45,126 bases of DNA. Origin: Bacteroidales bacterium. GTDB taxonomy: Bacteria > Bacteroidota > Bacteroidia > Bacteroidales > UBA932. The stretch's first letter is position 1, and every line of letters begins with the position of its first letter. Location: positions 1 through 45,126 of the forward strand of contig JAFSMS010000050.1 in assembly GCA_017447815.1 (NCBI GenBank), given 5' to 3'. The position numbers and the translations under genes are program-made. Below, piece after piece: positions 1-17,073 of this stretch. Below the pieces are notes generated by a model. That model had not been told where the DNA came from. It worked only from the letters and a program-made list of their open reading frames with translations, and ran no database searches.

Positions 1-113
1 CTTATGACATCAAGCGACCGATTGAAGAATCGTACCAGAAGAGACTTGCCAGGCAGGTCGTCTTCGCTCCGGAACTCGGCAAGTGGAACTACCTCGTCAA
101 ACCGGCCAACTGA
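1..113 (+). CDS. 3' end of an unknown CDS
   Basis: The reading frame starting at base 3 is open from the window edge to a TGA at 111-113 and encodes the last 36 residues of a protein. The fragment is charged, and its last residues read NYLVKPAN. I do not recognise the family. The upstream part lies outside the window. It ends about 170 bases before a promoter-like sequence, so it is probably a separate transcription unit from the genes that follow. Confidence 0.5.
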   Translation, partial: YDIKRPIEESYQKRLARQVVFAPELGKWNYLVKPAN

Positions 114-285
114 TGCAACTTATTTTTTACACATTACTTAATATATTACGGAATGCCCACAAATCGTACTTCTCCATTTCAAATATAGACAAAATGGCGG
201 AAAAACTTGAGATTTATTTGGTTAAATTTGACTCTGTAAAAAGGAAAATTGCCAGCCAGGGTGAGTGTTATCACTTGAAAATTGC

Positions 286-549
286 TATATTTGTACATGT
301 TTGGCGGAGTATATCCGTTGAACGCTACATATTAGGCAAAAAGCCAGAGGCTCAAACCGAAAATATCGCCAATATTTATTTGCTGGAGCCTTAGGTGATA
401 ATGCTCATCCTTTTGTCATCGGAGTAGTGGGTTCACCCCCGCGAGCTTTGATACAACTGGCATGAGAATTTATTACTGGACCAGCAGCAATGGCGTTTGG
501 CGACGCTTTCGGTTTCTGGGTTGAAGGTAGTGAGGACTCATGCCTTTTT
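286..549 (+). ncRNA. candidate structured RNA in a gene-free stretch
   Basis: Bases 114-603 hold no convincing gene. A Bacteroidetes-type -7 box, TATATTTG, is at 286-293. Downstream are several nested inverted repeats: GGC/GCC at 335-337 and 343-345; AGGCTC/GAGCCT at 348-353 and 386-391, enclosing AAATAT/ATATTT at 361-366 and 372-377; and GGCATGAG/CTCATGCC at 459-466 and 537-544. The last pair encloses CCAG/CTGG (481-484, 516-519) and GCGT/ACGC (493-496, 503-506) and is followed directly by five T residues (545-549), like an intrinsic end. I infer an RNA of about 250 nt that ends before the DUF6140-like gene, or a structured leader of that operon. No known RNA family was recognised. Confidence 0.4.
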
Positions 550-603
550 GTATTGATACGTCCCGCTCGGAGTTCTCAGGGGCAATATTAAAGCTAACCA
601 CTA

Positions 604-824
604 TGCCTAGATTTCGTATTACCACCAAGCGAGTGTCCCAGATGAATGGCATCCGCATTGAACCCGGTATGTCCGTGGAAGTCGTCACCAACAGCTTCTC
701 CAACCCGCTGCTTACTAATGGCGGTCAGCCAGTCGCCGATGCCTTCATGAGAATCTATGGCATTGATATCCGCAGGGCTGGTATCATGAGCCAGGCGTAT
801 CTTGATGTTGAACGTATAGGATAA
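604..824 (+). CDS. DUF6140-like small protein
   Basis: A 73-residue protein starting MPRFRITTKR and ending YLDVERIG. The pattern (N-terminal beta strand with basic residues, NGIRIEPGMSVEVVT, then NGGQPVADAFMRIYGIDI) matches my memory of DUF6140, a short Bacteroidales family of unknown function. I chose the ATG at 604. An upstream ATG at 540 lies inside the stem and T-run of the candidate RNA and would add residues unlike the family. It sits 6 nt before the 723-residue gene and is probably co-transcribed with it. Its last 34 bases occur again at 3029-3062, in front of the GTPase gene. Confidence 0.7.
791..824 (+). repeat. 34-bp direct repeat, copy 1 (3' end of DUF6140-like gene)
   Basis: The last 34 bases of the DUF6140-like gene, including its TAA stop, match 3029-3062 at 32 of 34 positions. 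The two copies bracket the 723-residue gene. Confidence 0.85.
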
Positions 825-830
825 AGAGAG

Positions 831-3002
831 ATGAGCAAGGAAAGGGTAATTAATCTCATCGCCCAAAATGACACCATGACAGCGGCTGCGGTACTGGCTG
901 ATGATATGGGTTTGGAGTATAATGTGGCATCAAAACTAGTTCAAGCCTATGCACGCGGGGATAAGTCATCTTTGAATAGGGCATATATCGGGGCAGAGGA
1001 TAGTTCTGAGAAGCCTAAGGGGAAGCAGAGTAAGAAGAATAAACAAAATAGCGGAGCCACCATAGAAGATATTTTAAAGAAATACCGTAATATCTGGTAT
1101 GGCGACATGGATAACATATCTTTTGCTGTTTGCCCCGTACCAGAGCACCTATCTGCTGAGGCAAGGGAGCATTTCGAACTAGGGCGGGATGAGTCAATTC
1201 TGTTCTACTACAAAGACGAAGGTTTTTGGGCGGGGCAAAGGAGCTTTACTGTCATAACGGAAAACGGAATTTGTGGACAGAACTCAGATGAAGACGAGTT
1301 GTTATACATCCCTTGGAGCGGGGTGAAAGAGGTTCAGTATAAGGAATACAGTCTTGATTTCTTCGATTATGAAGGAAAGTATTGGCATTGGGGCATAGGC
1401 ATGTTCACAAAGGATACTACTCCAGAAAAAGGGAAAAGGCTAGCCAAGGTTTTTAATGAGTGTGCACAGGTTGTTGAACCGGAGAAAGACCCCTATGATG
1501 AGATTCTAGAATTGGAGAAAGAGGAGAAGTATGATGATGCTTTGCAATTACTGGAGAAGTCGGCAAAATCACAAGAAGTAGAAGAGGACTGCTGGTATCA
1601 TTTTTACAAGGCACGTTTTCTTGTCGAGAGGGAAGAAAAGCTTGAAGAGCATACAGATGAGAGTGTAAAGATAATAGAAAAAGAGTTTCGCAAGGCGATT
1701 GAGCTTAGGGATGAAGATGATGAAGGGATGCCAGCAAGATGTAAATATTGGCTTGCATACCTTAATCACTATACTGGAAGATTCGTTGCCGCCAGGCAAT
1801 ATTTCATTATGGCCATGGAAGCAGAAGCAGAAGGAATGAGGGATAATGCAAATGAGATGGTAGAGGTGGAGGAAAGAAATAATTTGGTAGACATTTGGGA
1901 GAATTATACATCGGTATACGAGTATAAAGACAGAAAATTCATCATGCCCATCAAAGACCAGGATATTGCTGGTTGTGTTGTGGACGGTATTGACACCTTC
2001 AGACTGTCTAATGTCCCGAGCTGTTTTAAATTCCCGACAGGACACCCCATTGCAAATGAACTTTATATAGGTCATCCGTACAATCCCAACATTTATGTCC
2101 CTTACTCTGAATCAGAAGACATTTTCTTCCTGGATAAGATTGACGAATTGACATACTTATTACAGTGTCTTGGTGCTGAAGAGATCGAAATCACATCCAT
2201 TAAGGGTCGGAGCGTCTCAGAATATGAGAATCGTAGCGGCCAAATATCAGCACATCTTGATAATGGTTTGGCTGAGGGTAGTGGCACTTATGGTAAGTCG
2301 TCAAAAAACGACCGAAGCAGAGATTCGCAGCTTCAGCAGTCATTTAAAATTAAGTGCGATCCAATGAGGTACCCTTATGTCCCGGAGGGGCTCATTTGGT
2401 ATGGTGAACAGACTCGTTGGCAGAGAATGGTGGAAGGGCGCCTTAATGGGAATAGGCTGGAGTATAGCGAATCAATTTCTTCCACGGACACCCGTTTTGT
2501 TTCAAATACGGAGAAAAAGGACATTAAAGCTGCCGCAGAGTATCTATGGATCAAGGCTGATGGAAGTGCTGAGTCGAACTTGGAAACGCAATTCAAGGAG
2601 CATACGGAGACGCAGTGGAGAGTGGATGTTAAGTTCCGTTCACTAAGGGATTTCTCCAGCAACCAGGGTGCTAACCAATCAGCCGAAATTCTAAACTCCG
2701 ATGAGCAAGAGTATCTTGATGAAGTTAAGGCCGTTCTGGAAGACGGAGCAATTGGTCCTCGTGAACGGAAATCTTTAGAGCGAGCTCGTGTAAGACTGGG
2801 CATATCAGAAGTTCGGGCAGCAGAGATTGAAGCATCTGTGTCAACTCCCAAACTGACTAACGAGGAGAAGGAGTATCTTGATGAAGTTAAGGCTGTTCTC
2901 GAAGATGGTGAAATCGGTCCAAGAGAGCGGAAGAGCCTTGAACGCACTCGGAATCGTTTAGGTATTAGTGAGGAAAGAGCAAAAGAAATAGAAAAGATAT
3001 AA
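831..3002 (+). CDS. 723-aa multidomain protein: PH-like, helical repeats, beta-rich module, TerB-like repeats
   Basis: No single known family covers this protein. Residues 1-50 form a helical head and about 55-75 a lysine-rich linker. Residues about 115-210 (ESILFYYKDEGFW to the GKYWHWGIG region) resemble a bacterial PH/GRAM-type beta domain. Residues about 220-360 are acidic amphipathic helices suggestive of TPR repeats. Residues about 365-605 form a beta-rich module shared with the tail-anchored protein at 4163. Residues 625-667 and 679-721 are two near-identical copies of a helix-DG-helix unit resembling half of a TerB/DjlA-type domain. There is no signal peptide or membrane span, so it is likely cytosolic. 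Its context between a DUF6140-like gene and a GTPase suggests a scaffold or sensor role (inference). It is flanked by 34-bp direct repeats. Confidence 0.75.
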   Translation: MSKERVINLIAQNDTMTAAAVLADDMGLEYNVASKLVQAYARGDKSSLNRAYIGAEDSSEKPKGKQSKKNKQNSGATIEDILKKYRNIWYGDMDNISFAVCPVPEHLSAEAREHFELGRDESILFYYKDEGFWAGQRSFTVITENGICGQNSDEDELLYIPWSGVKEVQYKEYSLDFFDYEGKYWHWGIGMFTKDTTPEKGKRLAKVFNECAQVVEPEKDPYDEILELEKEEKYDDALQLLEKSAKSQEVEEDCWYHFYKARFLVEREEKLEEHTDESVKIIEKEFRKAIELRDEDDEGMPARCKYWLAYLNHYTGRFVAARQYFIMAMEAEAEGMRDNANEMVEVEERNNLVDIWENYTSVYEYKDRKFIMPIKDQDIAGCVVDGIDTFRLSNVPSCFKFPTGHPIANELYIGHPYNPNIYVPYSESEDIFFLDKIDELTYLLQCLGAEEIEITSIKGRSVSEYENRSGQISAHLDNGLAEGSGTYGKSSKNDRSRDSQLQQSFKIKCDPMRYPYVPEGLIWYGEQTRWQRMVEGRLNGNRLEYSESISSTDTRFVSNTEKKDIKAAAEYLWIKADGSAESNLETQFKEHTETQWRVDVKFRSLRDFSSNQGANQSAEILNSDEQEYLDEVKAVLEDGAIGPRERKSLERARVRLGISEVRAAEIEASVSTPKLTNEEKEYLDEVKAVLEDGEIGPRERKSLERTRNRLGISEERAKEIEKI
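2703..2993 (+). repeat. Tandem coding repeat of a TerB-like unit
   Basis: Bases 2703-2831 and 2865-2993 encode two 43-residue units 54 residues apart. They share EYLDEVKAVLEDG, IGPRERKSLER and LGIS. Identity is also high at the DNA level (GAGTATCTTGATGAAGTTAA is in both), which suggests a fairly recent internal duplication. Confidence 0.85.
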
Positions 3003-3028
3003 GTATCTGACAAACTATAATGCTGGAA

Positions 3029-3062
3029 CCAGGCGTATCTTGATGTTGAACGAATTGGATAA
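3029..3062 (+). repeat. 34-bp direct repeat, copy 2 (relic of the DUF6140-like 3' end)
   Basis: This intergenic segment repeats the last 11 codons of the DUF6140-like gene, with its TAA stop, 6 nt before the GTPase start. It differs from copy 1 at two positions. The ORF it came from is absent upstream of it, so it looks like a junction scar left when the 723-residue gene was inserted or the DUF6140 end was duplicated. Confidence 0.85.
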
Positions 3063-3068
3063 TAAGTT

Positions 3069-3671
3069 ATGGCAGATTTTTTACTGTTTGGCCCACACGC
3101 GGCAGGTAAAACACAATTGTATCACTCTCTAAAGGGATTAGACTATAATGACCCTCAGCAAACAAGCCAGGCGGATTATAAGGTTAAGAAGGATACCCTT
3201 TGGGGTTGGATTGGATTGAGCAAATTTACAATTCATGAAATAGGCGGTAAAGATATTTATCTCTATGATAAAGAGTTCCTGCACCAGGCTTTTGTGTCGA
3301 ACTCAAAGCTGGTTTTCGTGTTCAACGGCAATGACTTGATTAATGAATTGAAGAATTACAAACAGGGCGGGCAGATTAGCGCACTTCTAAAATGTTACGT
3401 AATGCCCGCGCTAATGGGAAAAGACGACGATTTGAACTGCCAACAGGATATCTTTTTTATAGCGACGCATGAAGATGAATATTATGGGACGGAGAGGGAT
3501 ATGGAAACTGAATTATTCTCGTGCTTAGAAAAAGCCAATGAAGAATACCGTAAAGTCGCAAATGGAACAAGGTATCCATTCAAAAAGTTATTGCGAGGGA
3601 ATCTCTTCTGCGTAGATGCAACGGATTCGGCTCAAGTCAGCAAGATTTTTAAAAATATTAACAATTCATAG
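3069..3671 (+). CDS. Ras/Arf-like small GTPase
   Basis: This 200-residue protein starts almost directly with a P-loop: residues 8-15 read GPHAAGKT (GxxxxGKT, Walker A). Later motifs fit a compact GTPase: a T-rich switch I region near 32, IHEIGG at 55-60 in the G3 position (Glu replaces the usual Asp before xxG), ATHEDE at 132-137 in the G4 position, and VDATD at 182-186 in the G5 position. The size and early P-loop recall Arf, MglA and SRPRB-like GTPases, but the G3 and G4 motifs are divergent, so nucleotide specificity is uncertain. The next gene starts 1 nt after its stop, which suggests tight coupling to the membrane-anchored partner. Confidence 0.75.
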   Translation: MADFLLFGPHAAGKTQLYHSLKGLDYNDPQQTSQADYKVKKDTLWGWIGLSKFTIHEIGGKDIYLYDKEFLHQAFVSNSKLVFVFNGNDLINELKNYKQGGQISALLKCYVMPALMGKDDDLNCQQDIFFIATHEDEYYGTERDMETELFSCLEKANEEYRKVANGTRYPFKKLLRGNLFCVDATDSAQVSKIFKNINNS

Positions 3672-3672
3672 T

Positions 3673-4161
3673 ATGATGACAGTATTAACACATCAGAGCG
3701 CCCAGTATCAAGGTGGGGATGTCTTGGTAATTGATGGTGAGAAGAGCTTTTTCTCTGGTACTCCTGCCCAGTTAGAGGCCCAGAAAAAAATTCGTGAGAC
3801 TTCTAATCCTATGTTTGAAAAAAAGGTTCTCGGTATATGCAAAAGTGCAGGGACTTCCGCTTCATTAAAGATATTTATTACTGATTCCGGGGAAATGGTT
3901 GTTTCATCCAATTTTCTAAGCAAAGATGAAAAAGGGCGAAACATCAGTTACGACTTTTTTTGTAATAGTATCGATATCCCAGAAAAGGTTGTTCGAGTTC
4001 TTGCCGATGATTCTCGGATTGCTGGCATGAAGCCAAATCCCGCCGACATACAAACTCTCAACAAATATCTCACCTTTTATAAAAACAGATCACGCAATTA
4101 TGTTATCGCGGGAGCAGCTGCCCTTGTTGTCTTATGGGCGTTAATAAAGATCATTTTTTAA
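3673..4161 (+). CDS. Tail-anchored membrane protein next to the GTPase
   Basis: A 162-residue protein without an N-terminal signal. It has a soluble alpha/beta head (residues about 1-135, including GGDVLVIDGEKSFFSGTPAQ near the start) and a single C-terminal hydrophobic helix at about 142-162 with Arg and Lys just before it. That topology predicts a head in the cytoplasm anchored to the inner membrane by its tail. It begins 1 nt after the GTPase stop and ends 1 nt before the next gene. I do not recognise the family. By context it could recruit the GTPase to the membrane or be its effector (inference). Confidence 0.65.
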   Translation: MMTVLTHQSAQYQGGDVLVIDGEKSFFSGTPAQLEAQKKIRETSNPMFEKKVLGICKSAGTSASLKIFITDSGEMVVSSNFLSKDEKGRNISYDFFCNSIDIPEKVVRVLADDSRIAGMKPNPADIQTLNKYLTFYKNRSRNYVIAGAAALVVLWALIKIIF

Positions 4162-4162
4162 C

Positions 4163-5065
4163 ATGAGTACTCAAGACCTTAAGCCGGCACTTTGTATATT
4201 GAATCCGGACGATGTATACAATTTAAAAAATAATCATGCAGAAGATAGTTATTACTGCATTACGCCATACGAAGCTCTCGAGATGCAAAGCCATGGCATC
4301 ACCTTCCCTGTTGAGCCACACTTGCAAGAAGGATTGGTACTAACTCGCGAACCTCACGGCCGGGGATATTATTATCGTACAGACGAAACAGACTGCCGAG
4401 TTATTAATGAGCGCTGTCTCGCTATCGAGGCGATTCTGTCATATCTGGGAGGAAAGGAATTCCGATATTCGGAAACCTCATCGTTCCGGAGCAAGCATTC
4501 TGCAGACATCGATGTCGAGCTTGGAGGCAAGAAGAGTGGAGTTGAAGTTGATACTAATACGAATGTTAATACCAGTACTAACCAGGGTGAAACAGGGGGC
4601 AAGATAGTTTCCGCAAAATGGAGTGGTAATTATACTCATGAAGGCTATCTACGGGCAGTAGAATTGGCCAAAGCAAACGGGTTAATTTCCGATCCGACCA
4701 TTGCCACTTTGCTGGAGCAACGTCTTCCCAGTCATCCGAACCCCATTGCGTCTCAAGAGTATCACGTGAATGTGACAGCAGACTTGGACAAGAGCATTCA
4801 TGTGTTGGAAGACATAAGCGCAAATCTTCAAGATAAAGTTGGCGGTCATTTAAAGGTGGATGTTAACACTTCACGAAAGGTTGATCAATCCGCCACAGTG
4901 GACTTTTTTGTGTCCTTTGGGCCAATTCCAATAGAGGTTACCCAGAAGGCGATAGAAGATGAAAAGGCTGCAAGCCCTGGAGGCAAAGACAAAAAATGGT
5001 TTTGGCTTGTTGCCGCGTTGGTCACAATTATAGCAATCTCAATTGTGGTGTATATTGTCATGTAA
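4163..5065 (+). CDS. Tail-anchored protein sharing a beta-rich module with the 723-aa protein
   Basis: This 300-residue protein has a long soluble part and one C-terminal membrane helix (about 278-300, starting KWFWLVAALV). Residues about 45-260 align by eye with residues about 395-605 of the protein at 831: both have FP followed by a Pro, an ExLxxxxxP segment, aromatic residues, a helix ending in LG(A/G)xE, strands rich in Ser, Asp, Asn and Lys, and a closing strand V(D)xxVxF. The middle (about 125-150) is rich in Asn, Thr and Asp. The module is therefore present in both a cytosolic and a membrane-anchored form in one operon. No family was recognised. Confidence 0.65.
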   Translation: MSTQDLKPALCILNPDDVYNLKNNHAEDSYYCITPYEALEMQSHGITFPVEPHLQEGLVLTREPHGRGYYYRTDETDCRVINERCLAIEAILSYLGGKEFRYSETSSFRSKHSADIDVELGGKKSGVEVDTNTNVNTSTNQGETGGKIVSAKWSGNYTHEGYLRAVELAKANGLISDPTIATLLEQRLPSHPNPIASQEYHVNVTADLDKSIHVLEDISANLQDKVGGHLKVDVNTSRKVDQSATVDFFVSFGPIPIEVTQKAIEDEKAASPGGKDKKWFWLVAALVTIIAISIVVYIVM

Positions 5066-5246
5066 TCGACAAATATTTGATACACCCATTCGTGTTGCAG
5101 AGGGGCAGATAGAACACCTGAAGCAGCAAATCAGCCTGTATAAGAAGTTCAAGAATCCGGGCTGGGAGGCAGTTGTGGAATCTTGCAACCGGCAGATCAG
5201 GGACAAACAGAAGGCTATCGCAGACATGAAAAAACGTGATAAGTAA
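5043..5246 (+). CDS. Short coiled-coil ORF, possibly a fragment
   Basis: The frame encodes about 67 residues, mostly a charged amphipathic helix (AEGQIEHLKQQISLYKKF, then CNRQIRDKQKAIADMKK). No ATG is available; candidate starts are TTG at 5043 or 5055, both inside or touching the end of the preceding gene. It may be translated by coupling or be the tail of a gene that lost its start. It ends 4 nt before the next start. Function unknown. Confidence 0.35.
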   Translation: MWCILSCNRQIFDTPIRVAEGQIEHLKQQISLYKKFKNPGWEAVVESCNRQIRDKQKAIADMKKRDK

Positions 5247-5250
5247 GGGT

Positions 5251-5748
5251 ATGAGCACCACGGCAAAGGAAAAATACGGCTTCACGGACAGAGAGGTCAA
5301 GGCATATCTTCTTATTTTCCGGGAAGATATCGACACCCTCAAACGTTCACGGCCATACCTATACGAGAACTTGCCTGCGGTCCTTGGTATCCCCGAGAAG
5401 AAATGGAAAGCAGGGATAGGAAGACTGGAGAAGATATTGTTCTATAAAAGGGCGCTCCGAATCTCTGCTGACCACCGGGAATGTCAGATTGGCAAGCGGG
5501 TGATAGTAAAGGTGCTCCTCGACATTATAGATAACTGCCCCAAAACCGAAAATGGATAGAAGGAAGCTCTAGAGAAGGTCAAGAAGGCCATCGAGTTCTT
5601 TGAGCCTATCCCTATCCTCCGCCCTTGGAACGCCGCTGGAAAGATTGACGAGGTACACAAGGAGTGGGCGGAGCGGTTATACCAACAGGAGCTTCAACGG
5701 GTTGAACGGGCCATAGGACTCCATATATGGCAAAACATTGACGATTAG
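5251..5748 (+). pseudogene. Unknown gene interrupted by an in-frame TAG
   Basis: From the ATG at 5251 an ORF of 102 residues (MSTTAKEKYGFTDREVKAYL onward) ends at a TAG at 5557-5559. The same frame then runs on, without an internal ATG, for 62 more well-formed residues (KEALEKVKKAIEFFEP to HIWQNIDD) before the next TAG at 5746-5748. The continuation looks like real protein, so I read this as one gene of about 165 residues with a nonsense mutation. TAG is used as a normal stop elsewhere in this region, for example by the GTPase gene, so wholesale recoding is unlikely. Family unknown; the N-terminal half is helical and basic. Confidence 0.5.
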
Positions 5749-5774
5749 CCGATGAACAAGACCACTTGAGGAGA

Positions 5775-5782
5775 TATCTTTA
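5775..5782 (+). promoter_or_regulatory. Candidate -7 box
   Basis: TATCTTTA is one mismatch from TAnnTTTG and lies 22 nt before the ATG at 5805. No good -33 box is visible. Confidence 0.35.
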
Positions 5783-5804
5783 CACTCCATAAACTGATGT
5801 CCGC

Positions 5805-6467
5805 ATGTTAGAATATGACCTTATAGACTATGGCCTTCGAGTTGTTGGTGAATTGACGGAACCGGGGCATGATCTCCCTTGGCGGAGAAATGCGAAGCTA
5901 TATATTTCAGTTCCAAAGTCATGGCCAATTCCGCCCAGCTACACGGATAGGATAATGCCTGATGGTGCACTAGGAGTTACCGATGCCAACCTTATCAGTC
6001 TCAAGGGCGATTTCAGGGTATTACTGGGTAACGTGGTACGAGAAGATTGGAGAAGGGCATCCCGACAAGTATACTGGTTCACCCATCGCGTCCAGCAAGT
6101 GTTCTGGACTGCCCTTTTCAGCAAGGGAGTCATCATCGCCTTTGAGGATTATGGTCCACACCCGACGAGTTTATGCGCTCCGTTTAACGAGGAAGTATGG
6201 ATTCGTTTTCTTATACCAAAGTCATTATCACATAAGCTTCCTGACGACGTTCCTGATGCCAAGAAGTACATGCACCTGAATGAGCATCAGATATTTTATT
6301 GTCCGGTGGAACCAGCGAATAGAGATGATTATGATGAGTATCTCTACGGTGCACTTGATAAAGATAAATTCTACACTGGGAAAGATGCCACCTGTTTCAA
6401 ACAAGCACCTTTCTTCTTTGACTTTGAGGCCGTAAGGGTCGCTATACAAGGGATTATTAACGCTTAA
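5805..6467 (+). CDS. Unknown 220-aa protein
   Basis: No signal peptide or membrane helix; the composition is that of a soluble, aromatic- and proline-rich alpha/beta protein (WRRNAKLYISVPKSWPIPPS near residue 26, then WIRFLIPKSL near 127). It does not match a family I know. A candidate -7 box precedes it, and the next gene follows 5 nt after the stop, so the two are probably co-transcribed. Base composition resembles the rest of the accessory region. Confidence 0.55.
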   Translation: MLEYDLIDYGLRVVGELTEPGHDLPWRRNAKLYISVPKSWPIPPSYTDRIMPDGALGVTDANLISLKGDFRVLLGNVVREDWRRASRQVYWFTHRVQQVFWTALFSKGVIIAFEDYGPHPTSLCAPFNEEVWIRFLIPKSLSHKLPDDVPDAKKYMHLNEHQIFYCPVEPANRDDYDEYLYGALDKDKFYTGKDATCFKQAPFFFDFEAVRVAIQGIINA

Positions 6468-6472
6468 TAATT

Positions 6473-7075
6473 ATGGATAAAATTAGCACTATGGACGAAA
6501 GCAGAATAGTCTGGAATGAACTTACTCCAACCCAGCAGGCAGTCCTTTGGACAATGGCGTGGTATGAAACAGAGATATCCGCCAAAGTAAGAACGCACCG
6601 CTACTATGAGGCCACAAAGCTTTATCATTTCTCAAAGAAGTTTTACAGAATGGATGAGGGGGAGTTTTACCGAATGTTATATGGATTGGCTTTGGAAACG
6701 GACCTAGTCGAAGCTAATACCGATGGCGAGATCATGACTCCCGACAACGCTGAAGTTGCCCTGCGTGTTCCCTGTGATGTGATTCTCCAGCAGAACACCG
6801 GAGCTCCCTATACAATCCTCAATGAGCTGGCAGAGGCATATAATAAAATACAAGACTGGTCTTCTGCGGACATTACTGCCATGCCAGTAAATGAGTTGGC
6901 GGACATCTGGAGTTATCTGGATGAGCATATCAATCTTGGCCTGGACTTCTGCAACCTCCCTCCAACAAAGGAATACGGAGAGAAGCTAGTCAACCTACTC
7001 GATTCCATCCGAGAACAAACATGGGACCTGCGGCGTAAGATAGTTGAAGACGGTCGGTTACCAGAGAATGAATAA
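6473..7075 (+). CDS. Unknown 200-aa helical protein
   Basis: Predicted soluble and mostly helical, with Trp/Tyr-rich segments near the N-terminus (VLWTMAWYETEISAK) and a charged C-terminal helix (REQTWDLRRKIVEDGRL). It follows the 220-residue gene by 5 nt and likely shares its transcript. No recognised domain. It could be the partner of the preceding protein, but nothing in the sequence shows this directly. Confidence 0.55.
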   Translation: MDKISTMDESRIVWNELTPTQQAVLWTMAWYETEISAKVRTHRYYEATKLYHFSKKFYRMDEGEFYRMLYGLALETDLVEANTDGEIMTPDNAEVALRVPCDVILQQNTGAPYTILNELAEAYNKIQDWSSADITAMPVNELADIWSYLDEHINLGLDFCNLPPTKEYGEKLVNLLDSIREQTWDLRRKIVEDGRLPENE

Positions 7076-7114
7076 TAGATACCAATATCAAGAGATTCAA
7101 AAATAATTAGAAAT

Positions 7115-7231
7115 ATGTTCTGGCTGATACTTTTTAATCTTCTCATCTGGTTGCTTGTATACCTGATTATTACGGGAATTCGAATTTATCAGCCTAACAC
7201 CCAACCCTTGTCAGTTACCGAGGCCAGCTGA
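7115..7231 (+). CDS. Possible 38-aa single-span membrane protein
   Basis: ATG at 7115, stop at 7229-7231. Residues 2-22 (FWLILFNLLIWLLVYLIITG) form a strong membrane helix. The last 13 codons lie antisense to a surface-protein relic, so the C-terminus may be accidental. It could also be the N-terminus of a truncated membrane protein. Confidence 0.3.
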   Translation: MFWLILFNLLIWLLVYLIITGIRIYQPNTQPLSVTEAS

Positions 7232-7326
7232 GCAGCGCTCAGTTTGGCCTTGTTTCTTGCTCCGAAGGTGATCTTCTTGGAGACTCCCGTCCCGGTGAGG
7301 TCGGCAAGGGAATCGCCACCATTACG
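7189..7326 (-). pseudogene. C-terminal relic of a surface/leucine-rich-type protein
   Basis: On the minus strand, 45 codons and a TGA read RNGGDSLADLTGTG, then KKITFGARNKAKLSAAQLAS, and end TDKGWVLG. This pattern (NGGDSL..L, (T/I)FGA.N.AKL, ending KGW.L.) is what I recall from the C-terminal ends of Bacteroidales leucine-rich or BspA-like and phage-tail-associated surface proteins. No start codon or upstream domain remains. I read it as the tail end of a gene otherwise deleted, evidence of rearrangement in this region. Confidence 0.5.
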
Positions 7327-7334
7327 GAAGATTA

Positions 7335-7365
7335 TTTGTTGTTAAATTATTTTTTCTTATATTTG
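7335..7365 (+). promoter_or_regulatory. Promoter of the AbrB/PIN pair
   Basis: TTTG at 7335-7338 and TATATTTG at 7358-7365 are 19 nt apart, a good Bacteroidetes sigma-type promoter, 43 nt before the ATG at 7409. Confidence 0.65.
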
Positions 7366-7408
7366 CAGAAAAATAAGAATTACTTACTTTTCTTAAATAT
7401 CGGATATT

Positions 7409-7672
7409 ATGGCAACCATTGCAGCTATGTCATCCAGAGGACAAATCGTTCTCCCTATCGCCATCCGCAAGAAACTCGGTCTTGGGGAGGGCTCGCAATT
7501 CCTGGTCGTGACAGACAATGAGAATATCCTCCTTAAACCTGTTAAGGAGCCTTCCCTTGATGAATTCTACTCCCTGATTGAACAGGCACAGAGAACGGCC
7601 GCGCAGCTTGGACTTACCGAGGAAGATATTAATGCCGAGATCAAGGCGATGAGAGCCCAGAAGCGCAAATGA
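7409..7672 (+). CDS. AbrB/SpoVT/MazE-type antitoxin
   Basis: An 87-residue protein. Residues about 7-45 (MSSRGQIVLPIAIRKKLGL, then a short hairpin) are a swapped-hairpin AbrB DNA-binding domain; the C-terminal helices (about 50-87, ending KAMRAQKRK) would bind and neutralise the toxin. The start could be 7409 or the second Met at 7427. The stop overlaps the next ATG in an ATGA junction (7669-7672), the classic antitoxin-toxin arrangement. It probably represses its own promoter at 7335-7365. Its toxin is damaged (next entry), so it may now act as a free antitoxin. Confidence 0.8.
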   Translation: MATIAAMSSRGQIVLPIAIRKKLGLGEGSQFLVVTDNENILLKPVKEPSLDEFYSLIEQAQRTAAQLGLTEEDINAEIKAMRAQKRK

Positions 7673-8036
7673 GGATTGTCGTTGATACCAACCTTACCAG
7701 CTTCTTCATTATATCATGGAGGGCAGGGTGGATGTTGTGGCCAGCAAGGAGATTGTGGACGAGTATGAAGAGATTGTACTCCGTCTGAAACAGAAGTACC
7801 CTAGGATCGACACAAGGATTCCACTTCAGGAACTTCTTTTAAAATTCGAAATCATCCGCGTCAGTTCCGATATCCAAGCCAGCCGTGATCCGGACGACAA
7901 TAAGTTCATATCCTGTGCTGTTGACGGGAAATGCCTTTATATTGTTAGTGGAGACGATGACTTGCTGTCTGTCGGTAATTATGGAGACGTGGAGATACTT
8001 ACCGTCGCTGAGTTCTTGAGTCGCTTGGATGGTTAG
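7669..8036 (+). pseudogene. Broken PIN-domain toxin (VapC-like, COG1569-type)
   Basis: The first codons read MRIVVDTN, the canonical PIN start with the first catalytic Asp. That frame soon stops. The rest of the domain is in another frame from about 7716: EGRVDVVASKEIVDEYEEIV, then SRDPDDNKFISCAV and VSGDDDLL, with the remaining acidic residues of the RNase site. Only about 23 nt separate the two parts, where intact relatives have about 25 residues, so I infer an internal deletion of roughly 50-60 nt that also shifted the frame. Translation from the internal ATG at 7716 would give 106 residues lacking the first strand and first Asp, so it should be inactive. Confidence 0.7.
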
Positions 8037-8111
8037 GTTGACCATCAGGATACCGCAACTTTCTGCTTTTTGTTTACGAGGGAAGTCGGCCATTTTCACT
8101 ATATTCGCGGT

Positions 8112-8327
8112 ATGGCAGATTATTACAGACATTTCAAAGGCGGCAAGTATAAGCTACTGGGTATTGCAAAGGACAGTGATACCCTGGAGAAGATGGTCGT
8201 ATATCAGGCTCTCTATGGTGAAGGGGAGATGTGGGTAAGGCCTTATGAGATGTTCTTCGGGACTGTCGAGAGGGATGGCAAGGTAATGCAGCGTTTCACC
8301 AAAATAACGGAGGAAGAAGCACTATGA
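8112..8327 (+). CDS. DUF1653 domain protein
   Basis: A 71-residue protein that is almost entirely a DUF1653 domain: YYRHFKGGKYKLLGIAKDSD, VVYQALYGEGEMWVRP and MFF at the expected spacing. The family is small, beta-rich and of unknown function, common in bacteria and phages. I prefer the ATG at 8112 because the domain begins right after it; an in-frame ATG at 8070 would add 14 non-family residues. Its stop overlaps the next start (8324-8327), so it heads a three-gene operon. Confidence 0.8.
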   Translation: MADYYRHFKGGKYKLLGIAKDSDTLEKMVVYQALYGEGEMWVRPYEMFFGTVERDGKVMQRFTKITEEEAL

Positions 8328-8806
8328 CATTTCTTATCGAATCCATCATTACCTGCGCTCTGTTTACACTCTTTGTATTCCTATTGTCCAGGAATCCCGT
8401 AAAGAGCATATTCAATTACCCGCCAGCTATAATCGAACGCTGCAAAACCCTCGGACTGGTTGATGATAGTAATAAGCCGGGAGGTATTGTTTTCTATATT
8501 AAAAAGATAACGGCGCTGCTTGTGTTTGGTGTGCTTTTGGGCTTGCTGGTTCGTTATATCAATCATTGCGAAACATTCTGGTGTGGCGTGTTAACTGCCT
8601 ATGCACTTTGGAACGTTGTGAATTGGTTCGATGCCATTGTCCTGGATTGCATCTGGTTCTGTCATGATTCTCACTTCATAATTCCCGGGACTGAAGATAT
8701 GACTGCTGCTTACCACGATTACTGGTTCCATATTAAAGGTTCTCTTATCGGCATGGTCCTGGCTATTCCTTCCGTTCTCATTGCCGGAATAATCGTAGTC
8801 CTATGA
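8324..8806 (+). CDS. Four-helix inner-membrane protein, unknown
   Basis: 160 residues with hydrophobic segments at about 2-22, 62-82, 88-110 and 138-160. Between the third and fourth spans lies a loop with NWFDAIVLDCIWFCHDSH and PGTEDM...YHDYWFH, which I have seen in uncharacterised membrane proteins of Firmicutes and Bacteroidetes. No transport motif is recognisable. Start and stop both overlap the neighbouring genes in ATGA junctions, so expression is probably coupled with the DUF1653 and TIGR04076 genes. Confidence 0.65.
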   Translation: MTFLIESIITCALFTLFVFLLSRNPVKSIFNYPPAIIERCKTLGLVDDSNKPGGIVFYIKKITALLVFGVLLGLLVRYINHCETFWCGVLTAYALWNVVNWFDAIVLDCIWFCHDSHFIIPGTEDMTAAYHDYWFHIKGSLIGMVLAIPSVLIAGIIVVL

Positions 8807-9105
8807 AGAAAGTAAGAATCACAGCCATAAGAAAAGCATCATACCCCGACTTGATGGCCCAGTACGAGAATCCCATCGAGCATGCCTGTGATGTAGTGGA
8901 AGGTCAGCAGTGGATGTCGGTAGATGGTAAGTGTCCGGAGGGTATGTGTCCTGAAGCTTGGAAGTCTATGAGGGAATTTGTAGAGGCCCTGGCACGTGGA
9001 GAGGGTAATTTCTTCGATGGCTGGATGAAGAACCCCATGAGCGCCATGATCTCCTGCAACGACGGATTCAGGCCAGTGAGCTTCTATCTGGAGGTGATGG
9101 AGTAA
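8803..9105 (+). CDS. TIGR04076 family protein
   Basis: A 100-residue protein matching TIGR04076 over its full length: MKKVRITAIRK, then NPIEHACDV near 24, WKSMREFVEALARGEGNFFDGWMKNP and SCNDGFRPVSF at the end. The family is small, has conserved Cys residues (C28, C44, C49 and C84 here) and has no firm function. Last gene of the operon starting at 8112, overlapping the upstream gene by 4 nt. Confidence 0.8.
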   Translation: MKKVRITAIRKASYPDLMAQYENPIEHACDVVEGQQWMSVDGKCPEGMCPEAWKSMREFVEALARGEGNFFDGWMKNPMSAMISCNDGFRPVSFYLEVME

Positions 9106-16305: not shown

Positions 16306-17073
16306 ATGAACAGCGCCATTTGGACAGGTCTTCTCATTCCCCTTGCCGGAACAGCCCTCGGCAGTGCCTTCGTCTTCTTCATGAAGAAGGATATGCCGGA
16401 AATCCTGCAAAAGGCGCTGCTGGGGTTCGCCTCCGGCGTCATGGTCGCCGCATCCGTGTGGTCGCTGCTCATCCCGGGCATGGAAATGGCGGGGGGAAAC
16501 GTATGGCCGGTGGTCATCGGCCTCATGGCGGGCTTCGCCTTTCTCCTGCTTATCGACTATATTACGCCGCACCTTCACCCGATGGGAGAAGAGGAAGGTC
16601 CCCGCAGCCACCTGAGCAAAACCGCCAAACTGGCGCTGGCGGTCACCATCCACAACCTGCCGGAGGGCATGGCGGTGGGAATCGTGCTGGCCGGCGCCCT
16701 GCAAAGCGGCGCGGGCATGTCCGTGGCCGGAGCGCTGGCCCTTTCGCTGGGAATCGCCATCCAGAACGTGCCGGAAGGCGCCATCATCTCCATGCCCCTC
16801 AGGGCCGCCGGCAACAGCCGCTTTCGCTCATTCTGGATCGGGGCGGCCAGCGGTGCCGTAGAGCCGGTCGGGGGGCTGCTGGTGGTTTTGCTGGCTTCGG
16901 CCGTCACCCCGGCCATGCCGTACCTGCTGTCGTTTGCGGCAGGCGCCATGCTCTATGTCGTTGTGGAAGAACTGGTTCCGGATGCCTCGCAGGGCCGCCA
17001 CTCCAATATTTCCACCATCGGCTTTGCGTTGGGCTTTGCGCTCATGATGGTTCTGGATGTTCTTTTGGGATAG
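16306..17073 (+). CDS. ZIP family metal transporter
   Basis: 255 residues, about eight membrane helices. The metal-site signatures of ZIP proteins are present: HNLPEGMAVG at about 112-121 in helix 4 and IQNVPEGAIISMPLR at about 147-161 in helix 5. A short loop (HLHPMGEEEG) near residue 90 offers extra His ligands. It resembles the GufA/ZupT-type group, which brings divalent cations such as zinc into the cytoplasm. It is divergent from the MATE gene and followed by the separate promoter of the aspartate operon. Confidence 0.9.
   Translation: MNSAIWTGLLIPLAGTALGSAFVFFMKKDMPEILQKALLGFASGVMVAASVWSLLIPGMEMAGGNVWPVVIGLMAGFAFLLLIDYITPHLHPMGEEEGPRSHLSKTAKLALAVTIHNLPEGMAVGIVLAGALQSGAGMSVAGALALSLGIAIQNVPEGAIISMPLRAAGNSRFRSFWIGAASGAVEPVGGLLVVLLASAVTPAMPYLLSFAAGAMLYVVVEELVPDASQGRHSNISTIGFALGFALMMVLDVLLG

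Follow-up and report, generated by a model that had tools for sequence, protein, structure and literature searches.

Sequence comparison points to a small GTPase and its two partner genes as one inherited unit in an exchangeable slot behind DUF6140 in Bacteroidales

The window, that is, the whole stretch of DNA analyzed here, comprised 45,126 nucleotides (nt) of a Bacteroidales bacterium (GTDB lineage UBA932; assembly GCA_017447815.1, contig JAFSMS010000050.1). Five plus-strand genes lay near its start, just where an earlier note on this DNA had placed them, and their coordinates were re-derived. The first was the DUF6140 gene (603..824; 73 amino acids), followed by the gene of a 723-amino-acid protein, here P723 (831..3002), with a TPR-like region, an X domain and two TerB-like tail repeats. 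Then came a small Arf-like GTPase (3069..3671; 200 amino acids) and two genes here called TA1 (3673..4161) and TA2 (4163..5065). The last three, hereafter the trio, were separated by 1 nt each, and this spacing was checked. The DUF6140 label agreed with PF19637 (E 2.9e-34), which was the only family that Pfam named above its cut-off among the five genes; NCBIfam gave only rows below the cut-off. The comparisons presented here indicate that the trio is inherited as a unit and that it occupies a slot behind DUF6140 whose content is exchanged.

The GTPase of the window displayed the P-loop GPHAAGKT, the G3 motif EIGG and THED in the G4 region, in line with its earlier description as a P-loop GTPase. 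The P-loop was intact in all 13 trio GTPases. The profile of the family matched Arl3 best in the PDB (E 7.3e-10), and then other Arf and Arl proteins, G-alpha and LRRK2; Pfam Arf exceeded its cut-off in the GTPases of loci L023 and L141. By these matches, the trio GTPase is Arf-like. The G3 residue was Asp in 11 of the 13 proteins and Glu only in the window and L106, and the catalytic Gln directly after G3 was absent from all 13. Four GTPases (L120, L159, L023, and L024) had a predicted N-terminal membrane helix (hydropathy at least 1.9).

By hydropathy, every trio possessed at least one membrane segment: a C-terminal helix was found in 12 of the 13 TA1 proteins, and L023 had instead the N-terminal helix in its GTPase. 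In the window, the TA1 tail was located at 4102..4158 (hydropathy 2.56 over 19 residues, from residue 144). TA1 is, by this prediction, the general membrane anchor of the trio. The tail of TA2 in the window (5006..5062; mean hydropathy 2.93 over 19 residues) appeared to be lineage-specific, as it was present in only 2 of 12 TA2 proteins (window and L106) and, outside that count, in an X-domain open reading frame (ORF) of L119. The earlier note spoke of two tail-anchored proteins. Both proteins of the window indeed end in a hydrophobic helix; as a defining trait of the system the pair was rejected, since only in TA1 was the tail general.

The soluble domain of TA1 was modeled from 10 sequences (pLDDT 82.9, pTM 0.76), and the predicted order was b-b-a-b-b-b-a followed by the membrane helix, which we take to be the longin strand order. 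Weak fold matches included chains of the FLCN-FNIP2-Rag-Ragulator complex (E 0.049), the C9orf72-SMCR8-WDR41 complex with ARF1 (0.18) and the FLCN GAP complex (0.52), and Lst4 was the sole chain titled longin among the matches listed (E 0.13–0.39). The FLCN-FNIP2 and C9orf72-SMCR8-ARF1 complexes presumably hold longin domains that act on small GTPases. The TA1 profile had no match in the PDB at E ≤ 1.

A profile of 11 trio TA2 proteins matched residues 405–514 of P723 in the window (E 2.7e-8 for the whole protein and 1.1e-7 for the domain). Among the 27 P723-type ORFs that were 400 amino acids or longer, it matched 19 (best E 1.5e-13; these counts include three same-record duplicates), and most of these matches spanned the first two thirds of the X domain. 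On this evidence, TA2 and P723 share a domain, the X domain, located at 1992..2645 in P723, where the outer boundaries are approximate and the wider limits come from the alignment. Matches of the X-domain profile to de novo TIM barrels in the PDB were rejected because the matched stretches had only ~25 residues. The TA2 model, built from 27 sequences (pLDDT 68.2, pTM 0.50), contained four long strands (residues 97–124, 127–152, 197–212, and 228–252), whose hydrophobic/polar alternation in trio members gave p values of 0.008, 0.0002, 0.069, and 0.0008, respectively. The model suggested that TA2 is likely a long-hairpin protein, a pore being only a possible further reading of it.

The tail of P723 was encoded by two 72-nt direct repeats (2699–2770 and 2861–2932; 82% identical), which together span 2699..2932. 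The TerB-like label given to the protein before found weak backing: Pfam TerB below the family cut-off in the relatives L062 (E 0.0021; 18.8 bits against a cut-off of 24.4) and L157 (14.7 bits), plus one TerB chain among the PDB matches (E 0.44); P723 of the window itself had no TerB row in Pfam at E ≤ 1. Its C-terminus matched the PADLOC candidate model PDC-S48 (E 1.7e-9), which was the one strong PADLOC match among the five genes. A repeat domain was likewise weakly indicated, with designed TPR chains in the PDB at E 0.015–0.08. The PH-like label was not borne out, the sole hint being FERM_C PH-like (E 0.048) in the relative L177.

Relatives of the locus were collected in several ways. Among the 149 genomes in the family, seed searches matched 2 with the GTPase and 12 with DUF6140; among the 393 in the order, they matched 2 with TA2 and 20 with DUF6140. 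The window's own genome is one of the 2 for the GTPase and also for TA2. The first scan of genome contigs with the single GTPase sequence gave no match, and when the phylum was searched with an alignment of four TA1 sequences, only the window was recovered. Scanning the contigs with a DUF6140 alignment yielded 420 pattern matches and 175 relatives, of which the best 80 were kept and gave 79 loci. Across 114 loci, profile searches detected TA1 13 times and the GTPase 14 times; L022 and L106 are the same record under two labels. The TA1 profile over the 393 order genomes added one trio, G438:C17. The genes of the relatives came from a simple ORF picker, with small genes and starts approximate, and the TA2 start in L097 was set by eye. 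The trio was rare: three full-length TA1 matches (window, G438:C17, and G470) occurred in the 393 genomes. Ten more TA1-profile matches were dropped as probably spurious: their E values were above 1e-5, and they lay within ORFs of 404–1003 amino acids that aligned to the latter half of the profile only.

The GTPase and TA1 adjoined in all 13 distinct loci, with a spacing of −35 to +21 nt, and TA2 came directly after TA1 in all 12 scorable loci. In L119, two X-domain ORFs preceded the GTPase and the contig stopped after TA1; L104 was left unscored, its GTPase ORF being short and near the contig end. Because it recurred in 13 distinct loci, the trio arrangement was more than chance. Its linkage to DUF6140 among the 79 loci holds by construction, since these loci were chosen by DUF6140. 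Three relatives were found independently, by GTPase, TA2 or TA1 searches: G091 and G470 sat behind DUF6140 or its remnant, and G438:C17 started at a contig edge.

Tree distances were compared by Mantel tests on 11 of the 13 trio loci, leaving out L119 (no downstream TA2) and L173 (no DUF6140). The three trio members were correlated with each other (GTPase–TA1, r 0.65; GTPase–TA2, 0.87; TA1–TA2, 0.75; p 0.0002–0.0004). DUF6140 showed no such relation to the GTPase, TA1 or TA2 (r −0.05, 0.03, and −0.15; p at least 0.35). Without the close relative L106, the trio values were 0.57, 0.86, and 0.69 (p at most 0.0014), and those of DUF6140 were −0.10, 0.09, and −0.16 (p at least 0.26). Judged by these distances, DUF6140 is a shared header with a history independent of the trio.

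A direct repeat overlooked in the earlier note was found between the two halves of the locus. The segment 788–833, from the 3′ end of DUF6140 to the next start codon, recurred at 3026–3071 on the plus strand, directly before the GTPase start (85% identity over 46 nt). Thus, the window looks like two tandem cassettes on sequence grounds: DUF6140 plus P723 come first, and the trio follows after the 46-nt stretch that repeats the 3′ end of DUF6140. Extra copies of DUF6140 were counted over the 79 loci (the window and 78 others). The last 60 nt had extra copies in seven loci and the middle 60 nt in two; extra copies of the first 60 nt were present in three, all within full second copies. Remnants of the 3′ end only existed in five loci (window, L106, L119, L125, and L133), and remnants of the 5′ end only in none. 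The remnant lay just before the GTPase in the window, L106 and L119; in L104, this position was taken by a full second DUF6140. At the protein level, 7 of 113 loci had more than one DUF6140 match, including L074 and L076, both outside the 79. From the presence of 3′-only and the lack of 5′-only remnants, we infer that the older DUF6140 was cut from the 5′ side; the simplest account would be that a new DUF6140 cassette was placed before an older one.

These results modify the idea that the five genes act as a unit. The GTPase, TA1 and TA2 were conserved together and linked in the relatives. P723 was usually found without the trio and belongs, by this distribution, to a separate cassette type, and DUF6140 had its own history. 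A single five-gene functional operon was rejected, since the DUF6140 remnant divides P723 from the trio and each of the two is a payload of its own.

After L096, near-identical to L086, was dropped, 78 non-redundant loci remained, and 73 were scored after five with <1.5 kb downstream were removed. Six payload families recurred, and 61 of the 73 loci had one or more of them: DUF697-like in 21 loci, P723 relatives of at least 400 amino acids in 18, dynamin in 13, the trio in 9, AAA in 9, and DUF1232 in 6. P723, the trio and dynamin never occurred together in any of the 73 loci; the AAA module stood beside P723 or the trio in three. The window, which is outside the 73, held both P723 and the trio. 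A DUF6140 tree, based on only 73 amino acids, was made for those 52 of the 79 loci in which any of four payload labels lay no more than 900 nt away. The labels changed 27 times on this tree, and shuffling gave 27.1 changes on average (minimum 20), so that within the limits of so short a protein no association was seen. The comparison with L082 was an example. Its DNA was 85% identical to the window over 603–828 (DUF6140 plus four bases), the sole other DNA match was 52 nt at 16348–16399, and the two GTPases shared only 19% identity, so the trios differ. Upstream of DUF6140, 118 proteins from 59 loci formed 98 clusters, which indicated that the cassettes sit at many genomic places. As far as these comparisons reach, the payload behind DUF6140 is exchanged, and DUF6140 is probably the common first gene behind which payloads change.

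Some further families were observed in these loci. A family of ~131 amino acids (C2; for example, L120:2245-2661) was found further downstream of the payloads in 25 of the 73 loci, often late in the run, and its L120 member had no Pfam match. Two modules with an AAA ATPase recurred behind DUF6140: a four-gene module ending in the ATPase (L092:13696-18132, L112, L141, L154, and L156) and a five-gene module of small proteins plus the ATPase (L105:10278-13435, L118, L130, and L156). At L061:9792-10613, a DUF6140 locus encoded a member of the DUF697-like family that also had an acyl-carrier (PP-binding) domain.

A phage origin was considered and rejected, as searches of viral contigs confirmed no relative of TA2, the GTPase or DUF6140. 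No GTPase relative was found in phage or plasmid records, and no DUF6140 relative in plasmids. One partial DUF6140 match existed in the phage-labeled record L177 (MT836227.1). Its region 3-8860 encoded the last part of a DUF6140 protein, a TM2-like small protein, a P723 relative with an N-terminal zinc ribbon and, at a greater distance, a tyrosine-integrase-like product (named by eye); the record resembled an integrative element more than a phage. L113 and L119 were DUF6140 contigs in metagenome-assembled genomes labeled Methanobrevibacter and Lachnospiraceae, probably owing to binning contamination by Bacteroidales.

Behind the trio on the plus strand, the window contained two small ORFs. The first (5043..5246) was coiled-coil-like with an uncertain start codon; its cluster (C20) stood behind DUF6140 in three loci including the window, and its DNA matched L084. 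The second (5251..5559; cluster C30) was also found behind DUF6140 in L101, making two loci with the window. At 7409-8036 lay two genes that by eye were AbrB-like and PIN-like and that probably make up a toxin-antitoxin system. The GC content was 39–47% in the first 10 kb and 50–65% in the rest, so the AT-richer region reported before was confirmed. The window begins at the first base of the contig, and bases 1 to 141–142 had 99% identical copies on two further contigs from its genome (G000:C27:47976-48117 and G000:C91:8523-8663). This could be a repeated element or an assembly branch point at the contig start.

The company of the trio in the slot was examined with 84 payload representatives. 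These were 78 of the 150 representatives listed plus six more, with core-like neighbors left out; the trio itself contributed two GTPases and a single TA1 and TA2. PADLOC matched 125 families at E ≤ 1e-5. Among the 25 of the 125 listed, LeoA and LeoBC led with seven members each (best E 2e-107 and 8.7e-103), and IetA, MkoA, MkoC, PtuA, and HEC-06 were also listed. Pfam gave Dynamin_N in nine, AAA in three, and GmrSD_N in two (among the families listed); the GmrSD-like pair in L028 stands behind a more divergent DUF6140. As a control, 84 proteins were taken from the upstream side of DUF6140, by random choice among the 277 ORFs that 46 loci had there. PADLOC matched 28 families here, with one member each among the 25 listed, mainly AbiEii and PDC-S01. 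As far as gene content can tell, the other payloads suggested that the exchangeable slot of the trio is of conflict type.

The anatomy of the locus is well supported, and from it we infer a mechanism. TA1 would keep the Arf-like GTPase at the inner membrane, in the way of eukaryotic longin–small GTPase pairs. A cue from infection or membrane damage might shift the nucleotide state of the GTPase, and this shift would release or assemble TA2. The X domain of TA2, common to P723, may then act on the membrane via its long beta hairpins. The likely outcome would be that the population is protected from phage via membrane disruption or remodeling in the infected cell. We regard it as about an even call that the trio is such a membrane GTPase switch and serves as a conflict, probably anti-phage, module. 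The membrane-recruited switch of the earlier note is retained as a conserved, co-evolving, membrane-linked GTPase unit, and the large 723-residue protein falls outside it.

Several observations weigh against this explanation. Defence-type matches (AbiEii, PDC-S01, mad2, and PDC-S48) were present in the upstream control too, which indicates that the wider region is accessory anyway. The payload and control sets were differently chosen and their lengths unmatched, so the payload excess is a tendency and not a test. The conflict role, a guess in the earlier note, is suggested by the other DUF6140 payloads and tempered by this control. PADLOC had no match for TA1 or TA2 of the window or for the three trio members of L159, and its GTPase matches were E 0.062 (mREase_IV) in the window and 0.0028 in L141. 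Twelve of the 73 scored loci contained none of the six payload families. For TA1, Foldseek of the model against the PDB reached E 0.028 at best (the type VI secretion protein TagF), none at or below 0.001, and IclR, PAS and Mediator chains were mixed among the matches listed. The TA2 model was modest in confidence. Its PDB matches (secretin InvG, E 3e-5; perforin-2, 7.4e-4) had TM-scores of about 0.1–0.2 and may therefore reflect long hairpins only, and in the X domains of P723 only the last of the four strands alternated significantly.

Three other explanations were weighed. The first is that DUF6140 cassettes are alternative envelope-stress or repair machines, in which the trio senses and patches inner-membrane damage. 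Membrane-related payloads recurred often (the DUF697-like, dynamin and DUF1232 families above), and bacterial dynamin-like proteins restructure membranes, according to PMC6104087. However, payload exchange and the rarity of full-length TA1 (three in 393 order genomes) better suit conflict genes, as do the GmrSD, Septu-type (PtuA) and Iet-type matches among the other payloads. We consider this maintenance role possible, though rather unlikely. The second is interbacterial antagonism, with toxin/immunity cassettes, DUF6140 as a delivery or tagging part, and the trio as membrane self-protection. An LHH nuclease (PF14411, E 1e-18) was encoded downstream of DUF6140 at L027:7381-7905, and similar short proteins (by eye) lay downstream of P723 relatives at L025:9902-10420 and L026:10683-11201; TagF, the top TA1 fold match, would also fit, at E 0.028 only. 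Known or candidate phage-defence families were nevertheless prominent among the payload matches, and antagonism seems improbable to us. The third takes the trio as one form of a GTPase system that has been described before, be it DO-GTPase/GAP1, Group 1 Rup or MglA/MglB. In its favor are the small GTPase with partner genes and membrane segments and the missing Gln after G3, as in Group 1 Rup (PMC4316618). In the Pfam and PDB searches given below, however, no GAP1 or roadblock match was obtained, and DO-GTPase2 matched only at E 0.012–0.015, over the P-loop; this explanation is already weakened and the least probable of all.

Beyond the conflict switch, a wider scheme can be drawn, which we offer as a speculation with little expectation that all of it holds. 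DUF6140 would head a gene-exchange system that swaps and stacks membrane-acting nucleoside triphosphatase machines, each new cassette trimming the older DUF6140 to its 3′ end. The trio would be a GTPase-gated pore, in which a longin-type, tail-anchored TA1 and the Arf-like GTPase control the assembly of X-domain hairpins in the inner membrane, and P723 would be an independent sensor-effector on the same pore domain.

Small Ras/Arf-type GTPases with membrane-anchored partners are textbook eukaryotic switches. If the conflict reading is true, a bacterial conflict system of such GTPase-partner design bears on the origin of these pairs. On the gene content compared here, gut bacteria of the order Bacteroidales appear to carry the trio in an exchangeable slot, and other such slots appear to hold dynamin-like and other suspected anti-phage machines. 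The DUF6140 header offers an easy way to search for further systems of this kind, and several of the six recurring families are of unknown function.

The trio fitted no system found. Among titles and abstract starts in one paper collection none was recognized as this trio, and full-text searching of one paper collection gave no paper on DUF6140 or PF19637. The earlier statement that the locus matches no known operon agreed with PADLOC, which gave no full-length match for the GTPase, TA1 or TA2 (window and L159 trios; L141 GTPase). The DO-GTPase/GAP1 systems, which Kaur et al. (2020; PMC7159879) describe as GTPase-centric conflict systems, resemble the trio: they lie in mobile neighborhoods whose other genes vary, they have membrane segments, and their conserved GTPase is followed downstream by its cognate partner. 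The trio differs from that account in having a single Arf-like GTPase with TA1 and an X-domain protein as partners, and the conserved Glu in Walker B/G3 of those systems was seen only in the window and L106, with Asp in 11 of the 13 trio GTPases. GAP1, for which models are presumably present in Pfam, had no match at E ≤ 1 in TA1 and TA2 of the window, L023 and L024 (GASH and FNIII partners were outside this search).

The Group 1 Rup GTPases, which lack the catalytic Gln after G3 according to Wuichet and Sogaard-Andersen (2014; PMC4316618), are also bacterial Ras-superfamily GTPases with uncharacterized partners, one often membrane-spanning. Their operons, as described there, contain an OmpA-type membrane protein plus a cyclic di-GMP or histidine-kinase output gene, whereas the trio has TA1 and TA2 and is located behind DUF6140. 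For the 84 payload representatives, the Pfam families listed (25 out of 55) included no such OmpA-type or cyclic di-GMP/histidine-kinase gene, although no search aimed at these genes was made.

MglA–MglB is a small GTPase encoded with a small regulator, the roadblock protein MglB, and the trio likewise encodes a small GTPase with a small partner. However, the TA1 model begins with strands and bears a membrane tail, its order b-b-a-b-b-b-a being compared with what we take to be the roadblock order, and no roadblock partner appeared among PDB matches of the TA1 profile at E ≤ 1. Eukaryotic Arf/SRbeta GTPases have longin partners. The trio resembles them in its Arf-like DxGG motif, a membrane-anchored GTPase and a partner with longin-like predicted order; the likeness is distant, and TA1 had no significant structural match. 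Lastly, dynamin sets matching the PADLOC model of LeoABC fill the same DUF6140-headed slot in other genomes. LeoABC proteins are large dynamin GTPases, whereas the trio GTPase is small and Arf-like.

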